From a virus, in the IMG/VR virus record IMGVR_UViG_3300048672_000060, positions 1 to 37,969 of that record: a DNA stretch of 37,969 nt, one strand, 5' to 3'. Positions 15,459 through 37,955 of the stretch are shown in pieces (position 1 is the first letter of the stretch; each line of letters begins with the position of its first letter). The notes under the pieces are model-generated. The model was not told the origin of the DNA, did not search any database, and worked only from the letters and a program-made list of their open reading frames with translations. Made by a program: the position numbers and the translations under genes.

Positions 15459-15656
15459 TTATTTCTCATCCAATGATTTAGTGGTTACTGTACGTAAAAT
15501 TACGTTGACAACAGCAACTAACATGAATATAATTCCGTAATGTGTTCCTAAATACTCTTGCAACACTTGCATATTCATCTCGATAATACCAAGGACAGCT
15601 ACAAGGATGTTGAACAACATTGTTTTACTTTTGTGTAGCTTTGTTAGCCATTTCAT
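15459..15656 (-). CDS. Small two-TM membrane protein, holin candidate
   Basis: 65 aa with two hydrophobic segments (about residues 13-28, MLFNILVAVLGIIE, and 41-55, GIIFMLVAVVNVILR), a Lys-rich N-terminus and a charged C-terminus. The HKSKTMLFN...LRTVTTKSL layout is shared by a family of small phage proteins found in lysis cassettes. With a GH24 lysozyme lacking a signal sequence and an Rz/Rz1 pair next to it, it is the best holin candidate. The other candidate is the 4-TM protein at 16659. Its start overlaps the end of Rz1 by 32 bp. Confidence 0.65.
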   Translation of the reverse strand: MKWLTKLHKSKTMLFNILVAVLGIIEMNMQVLQEYLGTHYGIIFMLVAVVNVILRTVTTKSLDEK

Positions 15657-28372: not shown

Positions 28373-29007
28373 GGATTACCTCCCGCATCTGTTGGAGATT
28401 TTCCAGCAAAACTATCATAAAAATTATTTAAAGCTTCAGGTATGCTTGCACCAGAATCAACAGCTCTTACCAAAAACGCTTTAATTGTCTTTCCGCCGTT
28501 AGTTGTCGAAGAAGCTGCGTCTTTTTTATTAGCTACAACATTGCTCGTTTTTACTAAATTAATACTCTCAGTGGATGCTGTTCTAATTTGAACAACTTGC
28601 ATATCAAAATACAAGCTGTTACTAGATTCAGCACTTACTGGAAGATTCAACGACTCAACTACACAATCATAGTACGTCTCATACTTACTGACCAGAGTAA
28701 ATGTAAGACGCTCATCACGTAACCTACGTAAGAACTTATATGCTTGTTGAATACGATCTAATCCACGAGACAGTGTGTCAGCTTGATAATCATTCAATCC
28801 GTACTGGCCAAAGATACCAGACACTGTGAAGCGATTGTTCTTCAGTTGAATATGATCACTAAACGATACGCCAGTTTCTACAGGATGCTCAGTTACTGTG
28901 TTGGAGAAGTCGTGAGAAATACTCACGGTACAATCCGCAAAATATTTCTCACCCGCAATCTCACTCACGCCAGCTTTAAATTTATTAGCGACGATGAATG
29001 TAATCAT
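28369..29007 (-). CDS. Dit-like distal tail / baseplate protein
   Basis: 212 aa. The N-terminal domain reads VSISHDFSNTVTEHPVETGV then SFSDHIQLKNNRFTVSG, the usual Dit-like pattern in contractile phages (orthogonal beta barrel around the tube end). QQAYKFLRRLRDERLTFTLV and the YYDCVVESLNLPVSAESSNS strand follow. The C-terminal ~60 residues are a low-complexity and helical tail. It directly follows the tape measure gene, the conserved place. Confidence 0.8.
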   Translation of the reverse strand: MITFIVANKFKAGVSEIAGEKYFADCTVSISHDFSNTVTEHPVETGVSFSDHIQLKNNRFTVSGIFGQYGLNDYQADTLSRGLDRIQQAYKFLRRLRDERLTFTLVSKYETYYDCVVESLNLPVSAESSNSLYFDMQVVQIRTASTESINLVKTSNVVANKKDAASSTTNGGKTIKAFLVRAVDSGASIPEALNNFYDSFAGKSPTDAGGNP

Positions 29008-29925
29008 TATTGTGCTGTCTCCATCTGAGTAACTGCATTTTTCGGTGCCGCGGTAGCAGTGATTGCTTTACCAAATTGACTGTCATCAACTTTAATATCA
29101 ATAAACCATCCCAGAGGGGAGTATTGAGAATAACCTTTATATAGGTTTTCGAATGCTGCTGACGGACTACTCAGTGCACCGCTACCTTTGGTTAAACTAA
29201 TGGCTCTACCTGTCATCGTGTCAGCCTTATCTCCGTATGTAGCATATAACGCCAAGTCTTCAATGACTGCATACGCAGCAATGATCGGAGCAAATCGGGC
29301 AGCCATAGCTAACAATGCTGAGTTAACAGCCCAAACGGCTTTGGATACAAAGCTGAATCTTGTAGCCATCAGTGCAAGTACACCACCAGCACCAACTAAA
29401 GACCAAATACCGCCACTACCATCTAAGATACCTAAACGTTCTAAGTTATCACCTAAAGAGTCAAATAACGCCACCATTCCACGGAAAGGTATTAACGCCA
29501 CTTTTATCCCTGCTGTAATTGTTGTAACAGCGCCACGGAAAGCCGCACCGAATGCTTCGGCTAATGGGGCAAGTTCTTGGAGTAGGTCAGCTAAAGAGCC
29601 GAACATATATCCTAAACCTTCGTCCATACCCCCTCGGAAGATTGTATCTTTAGCTTCTGTTAATGTATTGAAGAATCGACCCATCTGAGCACGAGTCTTA
29701 TTCATTACAGCATCTAACGCACCGCCCTCACGTGCCATCTTCTTCATTTCTTCAGCAAACTTAGGCAAAACATCTTTAGATTTTAATTTACCAGCCTCTA
29801 CAGCTTTAAAGAAATCTTGCATGTTTGTATAACCAGCAGCTCGCATCATAGCGTCTACACTGCCGCCCAAGGCCTCACCCAACTGGCCAGTAAGTTCTTC
29901 CTTATAGAGCTGACCTTTTGATGCC
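29007..29925 (-). CDS. Tape measure protein, exon 2 (C-terminal part)
   Basis: Second exon of the gene whose first exon ends at 30812. Joining T(30812) to G(29925) restores the frame as LQQ-M-ASKGQLYKEELTGQ, matching the conserved 'QMxSKGxVxxEELxGQLGE' stretch of phage tape measures. The exon encodes ~306 residues, with hydrophobic segments (GGIWSLVGAGGVLALMATRF, AMAARFAPIIAAYAV) that may act in the host membrane during DNA entry. Unspliced, the frame upstream of 29925 meets a stop (TAG at 29943-29941) in the intron. The spliced protein is 716 aa. Confidence 0.88.
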
Positions 29926-30082: not shown

Positions 30083-30655
30083 TCAATATAAGCAAGTTAT
30101 GTGTGACCAAGTACAACGGTATCTTATTTTAGATACTTGTTTCAATGTCAAACCTAATTGCTTAGCTACCTCACTACACGACGGCGGAATAGAATCTTTA
30201 TAGTCTACAAAGTATATTTTACAGACTGCGTGGACTTGTTCTTCCGTCATTTTACACATACCATGTTTCGTCCCTTTCAGTGTAGGGATTAACTTATCAC
30301 CAAACGCCGCTTTAATGTTTTCGGAGTTTGTTCCCCATTTAAGGTTGGTATAGTGGTTATTAATCTTGTTGTTATCTATGTGCATCACTACTACAGTATC
30401 AGATTTATAACTTTCTGTTTCATATTTCAGATGTTCTGGTCGTTCAACAAATAACTCTGCCACGACCTTATGCACTTTCCTAGAAAACTTTTTGTTATTC
30501 TTTTGATACTGAAAATAATAATATCCGCACTTATTTAACCTAGTGTACCACCGTTGACCTGTTCTACTATTAATCAAGTAACCGTCACGATGTACCAGAA
30601 TCTTTGGATATTCTGGGTAAGGTAGTATTTCGATATTTTGCTGCTGATTGTCCAT
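30083..30655 (-). CDS. Intron-encoded HNH homing endonuclease
   Basis: 190 aa. The HNH core has VHKVVAELFVERPEH (H62), then VVVMHIDNNKINNHYTNLKW (H92 with the N...N helix), and GTNSENIKAA, the usual phage homing HNH layout. An N-terminal NUMOD4-like strand region (YPKILVHRDGYLINSRTGQR) precedes it. A C-terminal helix-turn-helix (CSEVAKQLGLTLKQVSKIRY, 150-169) would recognise DNA. It would cut intronless tape-measure alleles and spread the intron. It lies in the intron between the P4-P6 core and the R element. ATG 30655 follows AAAGGAG by six bases, inside a regulatory hairpin. Confidence 0.9.
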   Translation of the reverse strand: MDNQQQNIEILPYPEYPKILVHRDGYLINSRTGQRWYTRLNKCGYYYFQYQKNNKKFSRKVHKVVAELFVERPEHLKYETESYKSDTVVVMHIDNNKINNHYTNLKWGTNSENIKAAFGDKLIPTLKGTKHGMCKMTEEQVHAVCKIYFVDYKDSIPPSCSEVAKQLGLTLKQVSKIRYRCTWSHITCLY

Positions 30656-30661
30656 TTCACT

Positions 30662-30681
30662 CTCCTTTATATTAAAAGGAG
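30662..30681 (-). promoter_or_regulatory. Hairpin that sequesters the HNH ribosome-binding site
   Basis: On the minus strand CTCCTTT (30681-30675), loop TAATAT, AAAGGAG (30668-30662): a perfect 7-bp stem in which the right arm is the Shine-Dalgarno of the intron HNH gene. In long tape-measure transcripts the site would be masked. Confidence 0.75.
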
Positions 30682-30682
30682 G

Positions 30683-30710
30683 ATCATACCATAGCTTTTC
30701 AAACTGTCAA
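30683..30710 (-). promoter_or_regulatory. Promoter inside the intron for the HNH gene
   Basis: On the minus strand, TTGACA (30710-30705), a 16-bp spacer and TATGAT (30688-30683; five of six consensus bases). The expected start point, 6-8 nt on (~30677-30675), falls at the end of the left hairpin arm. RNA from this promoter would lack most of that arm and leave the ribosome-binding site open. Confidence 0.7.
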
Positions 30711-30811
30711 GCTTGTCGTTACCGACTACTTTGTAGTGTATGGTCTTTAGGAGTTTCCAGCAATTAATGGAATTGTTTTCTACACATTACTGTGTAGGCA
30801 GACAACATTCT

Positions 30812-32043
30812 ATCTGCTGTAGCGCACGTAATGCGCGTTGGTAATCTTCTTTACTTGTACCCAGCACCTGAGCATATTCAGAAACACCAGTAAACAAACT
30901 ACGTTGTTGGTCTTTGGTCATTGTAGTTTTAGTGGCAATACTAAATTTAGTGAACTCTTTAGTAGCTAACTGTAAATCTACACCTAAACGCATTGCTTCA
31001 TCACGAATAAACTTCATGTGGTCGGCAACACCTGCTTCATCTTTAGCAAATACTTTAGCTGAAGCTCGTAGCCCTTCCATTTCGAACCCCGTCTGAGCAA
31101 TGTTTTGGATGGCGCTAAATGCAGTATATGCAGCAGTTAATTGCACTAGTTCACTACGTAAAGAAGCAAATGTAATAGCATTAGCCCGTAATGCACGTTG
31201 CTGTGTTAACAGAGCATTGGTAGCCATGTTCAAGTCTTTCTTGAAACCTTCCAAGTCCGTGATGTTAGCTCCAGTATACATCTTACGAGATTGAGCAGCT
31301 TGTTCACGTATCTTAGTTAATCCAGCTTCGATTTGCTCAGATTTTAAACCAAACCTTTCTGCGTAGTTTCTGAATTGACCTTCCTTGCGTTGTACGTGGA
31401 AGTCTGCACGAATACCGAAAGCCTCTTGTGCTGAAGATGCTCTACTGATCGCAGCAGCCTCTTTTGCTTTACGTTTAGCTCTTGCAGCATTTTGTTTAGC
31501 GCGTTGATTTAATAAACGCTCTCTACGTCTATCATATTCTGATGCAGCTTTCTCACTTGCGGCTTCTTCTTCACGCATTAACTGAGCATAATATGTTTTG
31601 TTTGCTGCTGATGTAATAGCTAGAGTAGGAAACAAATGAGACAAGCGTTCAGTTAGGTTGGCTTTACCGTTAGCCGTTCTGATAGCTTTCTGAGATTGTT
31701 TAGCCATCTCATTCTGAATCTTCTCTTGAGCTTTTAATTCCGTTTGCCAGAACTTAACATATCCTTTAGGATCACCGCCAACACTACCGAAAGTCATTAG
31801 CTTATGTTTCTTAGCTACTTCAGCTCGTACTCTCGCAACTTTCTTTTCAGCATTAACTGTAGCATTAGCTACTTTGTTTATATTGTTTATTGTGGCTTGG
31901 ACTTTGATTGCTTTGTCCAAACCACCAAGTTGTTTCTTAACCGAAGTTAATTTGTTTTGAAATAAGGCTAGATTGTCCCATGAACGTTTGTCGATATTAA
32001 ATCGGATCTTACCTACGACCGACCCAGTAATGTTATCTGCCAT
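30812..32043 (-). CDS. Tape measure protein, exon 1 (N-terminal part)
   Basis: Encodes residues 1-410 of the spliced 716-aa tape measure, which sets tail length and is ejected with DNA. It is mostly long charged helices (SEYDRRRERL-type, AKQNAARAKRKAKEAAAISR). It ends with DYQRALRALQQ, where typical tape measures continue QMASKG. Read without splicing, the frame adds IECCLPTQ and stops in the intron P2 loop (TAA), giving a 418-aa truncated product. ATG 32043 has AGGAG upstream, overlapping the stop of the chaperone frameshift extension. Confidence 0.88.
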
Positions 32044-36315: not shown

Positions 36316-37395
36316 TTAGGCTTTAACGCACTTTTGAATCAACAGTGGGTTGAATGGAACTAACAGACGGTTCGACTCGGTGAACAGTTTAGTACCTGAG
36401 AACTCGTCGCTTACTTCCCACATGTATTCAGGTTGAGCTACAGTGTTCAAGTAAGATTCTGTTTGAGCTGGAGCGAATACTTCAGTAAACAGATCAACAC
36501 CAACTGGTAACATGTACGCTTCGTCGTCTGGGATCAGAGCAGAACCACCGATTTGACCAGCATATTCAACGTAAACAACGTTATCAGCGAAACGAATCAT
36601 CTGATATTGTTCACGGAAGTTATCAAAACGTTTGATCAGAGGATCTTGACCATCTAAACCTGAACGTTCAACCATTGCTTGAGTCCACAATGGGTGAGTA
36701 GTCAGAGCGTTCCAGAAGTTCTTACCGCACAAGCAGATGAAACCAGACACACGTTGACCTTCGTACAAGTTGTCTAAGATACGACGACGAGCTTCTTCAC
36801 CAGCCAGTTTTGGATGAGTGGTTGAGTTAGACAGAGTGTACGTAACTGTTGGACGAGCTGCACCAGTATATTCTTGGTAGAAGTTTACTGCTGGAATAGA
36901 AGCGTTAGGAACATATGAAGTACCGTTTACGATAGTGTGAGCTAACGCAACTTCGCGCATCATATCCCAGCCACGCATCAGAGCGGCTTTATCTTGAGCA
37001 ACTACGTCAGCTTTGGCAGCTAACATATCAACAGTACCAGCTTTGCGGCGGCGCAGTACGTCTTCTGGACGAACGTGCATTTGCATACCGAAAGATGGAA
37101 CCTTGTGTAAATGGGTATCGGTTACTGGACGTGCATCAATCACTTGACCGCGATCACCGTAGCCTTTGTCAGAAGGCATAGCATTTACGTAGTGAGTGAA
37201 GTCATGTTCGAACACGTTAGTTTGTAAGAACACTTGAGATGGGTTTACGATTGCAGTAATCAGATCCGGTACATTAGGGCGTTCCGAAATCTCTGCGGTA
37301 ACATCATGCAAACCGTTCAGGTTGCCTAAATCACGTACTAATGCTTTAGTCAATTCCAAGGTTTGACCACGACCTACGCTAAATTTTACAGACAT
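36316..37395 (-). CDS. Major capsid protein (lambda gpE-like, phage_cap_E)
   Basis: 359 aa, usual size for the family. Signatures include VNPSQVFLQTNVFEHDFTHY near the start, LHKVPSFGMQMHVRPEDVLR, and the C-terminal QPEYMWEVSDEFSGTKLFTE and NRLLVPFNPLLIQK. It follows the decoration gene, as in lambda D-E order. Codon use is strongly biased and the gene is followed by a terminator, as expected for an abundant protein. ATG 37395 is preceded by AGGA. Confidence 0.9.
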   Translation of the reverse strand: MSVKFSVGRGQTLELTKALVRDLGNLNGLHDVTAEISERPNVPDLITAIVNPSQVFLQTNVFEHDFTHYVNAMPSDKGYGDRGQVIDARPVTDTHLHKVPSFGMQMHVRPEDVLRRRKAGTVDMLAAKADVVAQDKAALMRGWDMMREVALAHTIVNGTSYVPNASIPAVNFYQEYTGAARPTVTYTLSNSTTHPKLAGEEARRRILDNLYEGQRVSGFICLCGKNFWNALTTHPLWTQAMVERSGLDGQDPLIKRFDNFREQYQMIRFADNVVYVEYAGQIGGSALIPDDEAYMLPVGVDLFTEVFAPAQTESYLNTVAQPEYMWEVSDEFSGTKLFTESNRLLVPFNPLLIQKCVKA

Positions 37396-37448
37396 GTAAT
37401 TTAATTCCTATAATTATTCTTGACAGTATATGTGCTAAACGGCTACTA

Positions 37449-37955
37449 TTAGTAACCGTATAAGCTAGAAGTTTTCAGAGCAGCAACAGGTTTAACGTCG
37501 ATACCTTTACCTTCTAATTGTGCTTTGATTAAAGCTAAACGAGCTGGTACAGAAATACCTGCGTCGAAAATCAAACCGCCGTTAGCGTGTGTATCTTTTA
37601 CACCTACTGGGCCACGGAACAGCACATAAGCTTTAGAAGCAGTAGTACCAACAGTAGCTGAGTATTCACCGCCGATAGAGCCGTTGAAGCCAACAACGAT
37701 ACCAATTGCACCGCGATCTGGCAGAGTTGGAGTACCTGACGGAGCAGTCAACACAGTATCAGAAGTGAAGTCAGTGTTTTTCAGAACACGGTAAGCATCA
37801 GTACCATTGTAGTAAACAACTTGACCTAACTTAACAGTAGTGTCAGCAGCTTCTTTCAAGCTAACTTCAGCGTAGTTAAAGTCTGGAACCAGAGAAGTCG
37901 CGTCTGACATTAAGACAGCAGACAAAAATGGTTGAGTAGTAGCAATTTTAGTCAT
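37449..37955 (-). CDS. Capsid decoration protein
   Basis: 168 aa, beta-rich, small and Thr/Val/Ala-heavy: DTTVKLGQVVYYNGTDAYRV, DRGAIGIVVGFNGSIGGEYS, KAYVLFRGPVGVKDTHANGG. Its place directly before the gpE-like capsid gene is the lambda gpD position. It likely forms spikes that stabilise the head. The gene is complete; its upstream region continues beyond the window. Confidence 0.75.
   Translation of the reverse strand: MTKIATTQPFLSAVLMSDATSLVPDFNYAEVSLKEAADTTVKLGQVVYYNGTDAYRVLKNTDFTSDTVLTAPSGTPTLPDRGAIGIVVGFNGSIGGEYSATVGTTASKAYVLFRGPVGVKDTHANGGLIFDAGISVPARLALIKAQLEGKGIDVKPVAALKTSSLYGY

Follow-up and report, generated by a model that had tools for sequence, protein, structure and literature searches.

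A probable expression module, with a hairpin-masked start and a promoter inside the mask, for an HNH gene in a phage group I intron

The HNH gene inside a group I intron of this phage very probably carries its own expression module, in which a hairpin masks the start of the gene and a promoter would begin its RNA inside the mask. This view is built on the parts of the module, their co-occurrence with the open reading frame (ORF), the co-variation of the hairpin arms and the change in predicted accessibility of the start, as found in the sequence and by comparison with relatives. The window is the whole stretch that was analysed, 37,969 nucleotides of the IMG/VR record IMGVR_UViG_3300048672_000060. 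A preliminary description had proposed a switch at this place, and when the window was re-read all its coordinates for promoter, hairpin, Shine-Dalgarno and HNH start were correct.

A group I intron in a tape-measure gene

The tape-measure gene, on the minus strand, is interrupted by an 886-nt group I intron (30811-29926), and the ORFs 32043-30787 and 29882-29007 are two pieces of this one gene (Pfam TMP_3). The surroundings are a myovirus-like structural block with genes for the major head protein, tail sheath, tail chaperone and baseplate. Just ahead of the tail assembly chaperone (ORF 32683-32261, PHROGs) there is a terminator-like 12-bp hairpin with a T tail (32760-32733, minus strand).

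30812..32043, minus strand: 5' exon of the tape-measure gene (TMP_3); Pfam TMP_3 at 4e-8, exon end set by P1
29926..30811, minus strand: group I intron, 886 nt; Intron_gpI partial matches, P10, last base G29926, junction length
29007..29925, minus strand: 3' exon of the tape-measure gene; frame ASKGQLYKEELTGQL continues the homologues
30757..30762, minus strand: 5' strand of P4, UGCUGG; Rfam alignment, conserved in about 135 relatives among the matches listed
30688..30744, minus strand: peripheral extension of P5; ACCAUA (30744-30739) with UAUGGU (30693-30688), pair kept by other bases in relatives
30630..30637, minus strand: 5' strand of P6a, AAUAUCGA; pairs with UUGAUAUU at 30086-30079, read from the sequence
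30083..30655, minus strand: HNH homing-endonuclease-like ORF, 190 aa; HNH_3 at 1e-4, 22.3 bits (cut-off 24.8)

With Rfam at the gathering threshold the window gave zero matches to the intron, because the HNH ORF splits it. Two partial matches to Intron_gpI, both below the gathering score of 50, cover its 5' and 3' halves (30817-30546 and 30230-29977, E of 5e-9 and 0.017) and with them the group I core P3-P8, and the intron appears to be IA-like. We take its core and P7-P9 sequences to resemble those of the Twort-type group IA introns (Staphylococcus phage), and many staphylococcal phage introns match its 3' core at the DNA level. Furthermore, the splice borders GCAGAU|A... and ...GTG|GGCAT could be placed by P1 (GCAGAU 30817-30812 with GUCUGC 30803-30798), with its U.G pair at the 5' splice site, by the terminal G and by P10, in which AUGUU (30808-30804) pairs with the GGCAU (29925-29921) that opens the second exon. 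The spliced junction CAGCAGAT|GGCATCAAAAGG would be translated as QQM-ASKGQ, equal in length to the intron-less homologues (QM-LSKG, QM-MNKG, QI-MNKG). Splice sites at ...GAT|GTGGG and ...GATA|TGGG were rejected, giving one residue too many against the same homologues. The intron would be expected to splice.

The HNH_3 match of the ORF is just under the Pfam cut-off, and three of the four relatives scanned are above it. Residues H62, H92, D94, N99, N100, N104 and N113 are invariant in the HNH proteins compared. The product is presumably an active endonuclease. A point overlooked in the preliminary description is that the start codon of the ORF is itself part of the core helices P5/P4; their upstream partner strands would be missing from the short RNA that the promoter described below would give. 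The first HNH codons double as P5/J5-4/P4: AUGGA is part of P5, and the P4 partner UCAGCA (30647-30642) falls within codons 3-5. At the other end, the ORF fills the loop of P6a, and its stop codon is held inside this helix by UUGAUAUU (30086-30079). The P5 extension, with a counterpart in the relative L003 (ACACAAG/CUUGUGU), has the -35 region within it and shares bases with the extended -10, and promoter and hairpin are placed between this extension and the strand of the core in which the protein start is also encoded. Since the start codon is in the core, an RNA molecule that is being translated should not splice, and vice versa; by the same anatomy, a short RNA without the 5' strands of P1 to P5 cannot be a ribozyme. 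Overlap of intron ORFs with the core, the 5' end included, has been discussed before (PMC3073962).

Promoter and hairpin ahead of the HNH start

30705..30710, minus strand: -35 box TTGACA; TTGACA/TTGACG/TTGAAT in 10/10 ORF-bearing relatives and TTGACA in 0/125 others among the matches listed
30683..30691, minus strand: extended -10, TGGTATGAT; TATNAT invariant in 10/10 ORF-bearing relatives among the matches listed
30672..30676, minus strand: predicted transcription start region, from the -10 spacing
30662..30681, minus strand: Shine-Dalgarno-holding hairpin CUCCUUU-UAAUAU-AAAGGAG; pair probabilities of 0.93-1.0 in the long RNA, co-variation in relatives
30662..30668, minus strand: Shine-Dalgarno AAAGGAG, the right arm of the hairpin, 6 nt from the ATG (30655-30653)

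The promoter had been called near-consensus, and it has indeed 11 of the 12 consensus bases: TTGACA (30710-30705), a 16-nt spacer and TATGAT (30688-30683), with TGG ahead of the -10 (TGGTATGAT), which makes it an extended one. The whole window has seven sites scoring at least 11/12 where 1.8 would be expected; among these seven only the intron promoter has a TG before the -10. On the plus strand, a 12/12 sigma70 consensus (TTGACA-17-TATAAT, 15505-15533) lies opposite minus-strand ORFs, and two strong sigma70-like sites (37385-37449) are antisense to the beginning of the major head gene. The T4 late promoter TATAAATA does not occur at the intron ORF, where TTGACA-16-TATGAT stands in its place, and a search for a homing-site-like operator over the promoter (autorepression) found none, the best identity being 12/20 against 11-14 in shuffles.

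The -10 ends at 30683, one base ahead of the hairpin. If the promoter is active in this phage, as its sequence suggests, the spacing from the -10 predicts a start inside the hairpin, as had been proposed; it is not fixed at 30676, since bases 7-9 after the -10 are T and the first purines are A30673 and A30672, and may fall anywhere in 30676-30672. Such a start would remove most or all of the left arm.

The hairpin is the perfect 7-bp one previously noticed, in which CUCCUUU (30681-30675) and AAAGGAG (30668-30662) form seven Watson-Crick pairs around the loop UAAUAU, with an energy of -8.7 kcal/mol. A 7-pair Watson-Crick stem into the Shine-Dalgarno is found in 0.16% of random leaders of about the window composition. 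When the pyrimidine-rich composition of the leader was kept in a shuffle and G-U pairs were counted, chance was not rejected for the window hairpin alone (p about 0.34, in a test with little power on single leaders), and the proof that it is not due to chance thus rests on the comparison with relatives. Thermodynamic folding, which takes in neither tertiary structure nor co-transcriptional folding nor ribosomes, gave the seven pairs at 0.93-1.0 in the long RNA, with a Shine-Dalgarno P(unpaired) of 0.01. For RNAs from 30676, 30673 or 30672 the latter rose to 0.62-0.63, the Shine-Dalgarno being still about 40% paired, and P(unpaired) of the AUG went from 0.13-0.20 in the long RNA to 0.73 in the short one.

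Relatives with and without the ORF

IMG/VR was scanned with patterns free of the -35, the -10 and the hairpin, and phage records were added by DNA or protein similarity. The same P4-P5 layout was found in at least 137 distinct introns, among which at least 12 rows, 10 of them clearly distinct, carry an ATG where the HNH ORF of the window starts. The ORF has at least 100 aa in 11 of the 12; L006 (84 aa) was added by hand and counted with them, since it has the leader of L007. All ten distinct ORF-bearing introns among the matches listed have a promoter of 10-12/12 with the hairpin 0-1 nt after the -10, and every ORF-bearing row listed has TTGACA, TTGACG or TTGAAT, a spacer of 16-17, TATNAT and a Shine-Dalgarno. 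By its position the promoter would give an RNA minus the 5' arm in the window and in all ten of these relatives. Only 1 of the 123 introns without this ORF among the matches listed reaches a promoter score of at least 10/12 (Fisher p = 3e-16 for ORF presence against promoter score, ignoring kinship and so overstating independence), and a Shine-Dalgarno-like motif precedes the start position in 12/12 ORF rows versus 1/125 others listed. The ORF-less introns listed have mostly GTGAAT at the -35 position, TTGACA in 0/125, and no -10; in Aeromonas phage PhAER-4, which is without this ORF, the P5 strand leads directly into GGGCAATCAGCA. The ORF-bearing introns may share one ancestor, and the counts would then not be independent. 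Genome contigs scanned with the leader pattern gave, among the matches listed, almost only chance matches.

Two further arrangements were seen in introns of this type. The ORF-less L016, L025, L032 and L035 have an A/T-rich hairpin (AUAGUGA/UCACUAU) in the slot of the Shine-Dalgarno hairpin, and L184, L202 and L205, without the promoter-hairpin module, have long ORFs, GIY-YIG-like by eye, that open from TTG in the P5/P4 strand.

The hairpin arms change together: they are CUCCUUU/AAAGGAG in the window, UUUCCUU/GAGGAAA in L001, CUCCUU/GAGGAG in L003, UUCUCCU/AGGAGGA in L007, UACUCUU/AGGAGUA in L031, GAAUCCUU/GAGGAUUC in L040 and AAUCUUUUAGA/UCUAGGAGAUU in L084. Over ten leaders the summed duplex energy of own versus swapped arms was -83 versus -69 kcal/mol (s.d. 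4, p = 0.001). The purine-rich Shine-Dalgarno is nearly constant, and the co-variation appears as change around a fixed centre. Predicted pairing and this co-variation both place the ribosome-binding site in a hairpin on the long RNA. On the short RNA, the Shine-Dalgarno P(unpaired) is up in all relatives folded (from 0.00-0.32 to 0.22-0.82), with a weak predicted release in L003 (0.00 to 0.22) and L040 (0.32 to 0.42). The promoter with abutting hairpin, the sigma70-like switch layout of the preliminary description, is in this way found, with compensatory changes, in 10 of 10 ORF-bearing relatives listed and absent from about 125 ORF-less introns.

The hairpin could instead serve splicing, by stopping the Shine-Dalgarno from pairing with CUCCU (30753-30749, J4/5-P5) and so protecting the folding of the ribozyme, with the promoter secondary. 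This CUCCU is complementary to AGGAG and the hairpin is almost completely formed in the long RNA, but the kept -35, -10 and hairpin abutment in 10/10 relatives listed would be left unexplained; we consider such a role unlikely as the whole explanation, and it would be compatible with the switch, not opposed to it. It is also improbable that the promoter is real and the hairpin no translational mask in vivo, the endonuclease being made from both RNAs under transcriptional control only. At -8.7 kcal/mol this is a short, moderately strong hairpin of the kind that ribosomes can open; however, compensatory changes hold it, Shine-Dalgarno hairpins also precede differently placed HNH ORFs in other phage introns (L386, L390) with no sigma70 site next to them, and deleting the analogous td hairpin raises I-TevI (PMC3014915). 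That both elements are functionless, with the promoter reflecting conserved intron RNA and the hairpin a pyrimidine-rich linker, is very improbable: in ORF-less introns, too, conservation extends to part of TTGA and to GNTTGAAAA in the spacer, and the window-only shuffle does not reject chance, but those introns listed have mostly GTGAAT and no -10, the -10 bases are mostly in a linker that ORF-less introns do not have, so that TATNAT is not explained by RNA structure, and the swapped arms pair less well than the own ones.

The promoter-hairpin-start layout, which we read as a masked start with its own promoter, recurs by all appearances in Pseudomonas, Pectobacterium and Salmonella phages and in environmental contigs, at several insertion sites. 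An intron at the window's tape-measure site is also present in L001 and L071; other tape-measure sites, from the flanking frames, are occupied in L003, L013, L031, L040 and L084, and a DNA polymerase site in L005 and its relatives. The leader of the window is 82% identical to that of Pseudomonas phage PseuPha1 versus 40% for the HNH proteins; identity of HNH proteins behind the same leader goes down to 22%, and BLAST matches that of L031 only in short stretches around the HNH motif. L001 has in addition, from about 2780, an apparent second group I intron some 50 nt past the first in the same tape-measure gene.

The HNH relatives in ICP1, qdvp001, W70, Kp_Z1 and ULINTec7, detected by protein similarity, start elsewhere in the intron. 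Some of these differently placed ORFs have Shine-Dalgarno hairpins, and none except ICP1 has an abutting sigma70 site. In the tape-measure intron of Vibrio phage ICP1 (L384, about 1100-1192) the HNH start is deeper inside the intron, and TTGACA-17-TAGAAT, whose -35 is formed by the J5/4-P4 strand (TTGACAATCAGCAG), stands against a hairpin partly over the Shine-Dalgarno. This is possibly the same switch, independently reached; its folding showed no release (0.31 for the long RNA, 0.19 for the short). In L386 and L390 (Autographiviridae Kp_Z1 and ULINTec7; primase/helicase genes) ACACCU(C)/(G)AGGUGU hairpins at about 1140-1183 cover the Shine-Dalgarno, and upstream of the HNH start a sigma70-like site was not found.

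Proposed control and known systems

On RNA coming from upstream the 7-bp hairpin would lock the Shine-Dalgarno, and helices P5 and P4 of the ribozyme would occupy the AUG together with the first codons; with no ribosome entry, the intron would fold and splice. The sigma70-type promoter (30710-30683), partly written into the P5 extension, would begin RNA at about 30676-30672, inside the hairpin. This short RNA, which would have little or nothing of the left arm and none of the 5' strands of P1 to P5, would neither mask the start nor splice and would be endonuclease mRNA only, so that translation would differ between the two RNAs. The recurrence of the layout suggests that introns with an endonuclease gene may in general need to keep ribosomes out of the ribozyme core.

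That a sigma70 promoter lies in a structural gene suggests that the endonuclease is, if anything, early, the opposite of T4. Intron endonucleases can decide a contest between co-infecting phages (PMC11620839), and therefore the timing of their production matters. Tentatively, the switch may run in the reverse order of T4: host sigma70 polymerase would give an early short endonuclease mRNA, the late long tape-measure RNA would be silent and splice, and the module would stay with the intron while the HNH gene diverges or is replaced. An early endonuclease, if true, would come at a time at which homing, or an attack on a rival phage in the same cell, is of use.

The hairpin and late-promoter control of T4 is usually regarded as belonging to T-even phages with their modified polymerase. 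The preliminary description had cited this precedent correctly (PMC2988022, PMC3014915): in td, removal of the hairpin leads to early I-TevI and impaired splicing. The td, nrdB and nrdD introns of T4 (I-TevI, I-TevIII, I-TevII) resemble the window in having an intron ORF (in td in the P6 loop), a ribosome-binding site in a hairpin and a promoter whose position leaves its RNA without the 5' part of the hairpin (PMC2988022, PMC3073962). Their promoters are late or middle, whereas that of the window is sigma70-type, and their host genes are early or middle, whereas that of the window is structural and probably late. The free-standing mobE (Aeh1) and segB (T4) also have a hairpin over the endonuclease ribosome-binding site and a late promoter (PMC2988022) but, unlike the window HNH gene, are outside any self-splicing intron. 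In the literature searched, with subscription papers largely outside it, we found no report of a sigma70 version of this control.

The closest counterparts are the introns of Pectobacterium CB7/phiTE DNA polymerase (CB7_50), Salmonella SSE121 and the PseuPha1 tape measure, which have the same leader, promoter, hairpin and start position, at other insertion sites and with HNH proteins 22-41% identical. Splicing of the CB7_50 intron (L005) was demonstrated by RT-PCR (PMC7344957). The parts of the CB7 paper available to us describe sigma70-like early promoters elsewhere in the genome and no phage RNA polymerase gene, and mention no promoter-hairpin arrangement in the introns (PMC7344957). A T4-like logic built with a plain bacterial promoter would thus appear to extend this control to other phages and to another promoter type.
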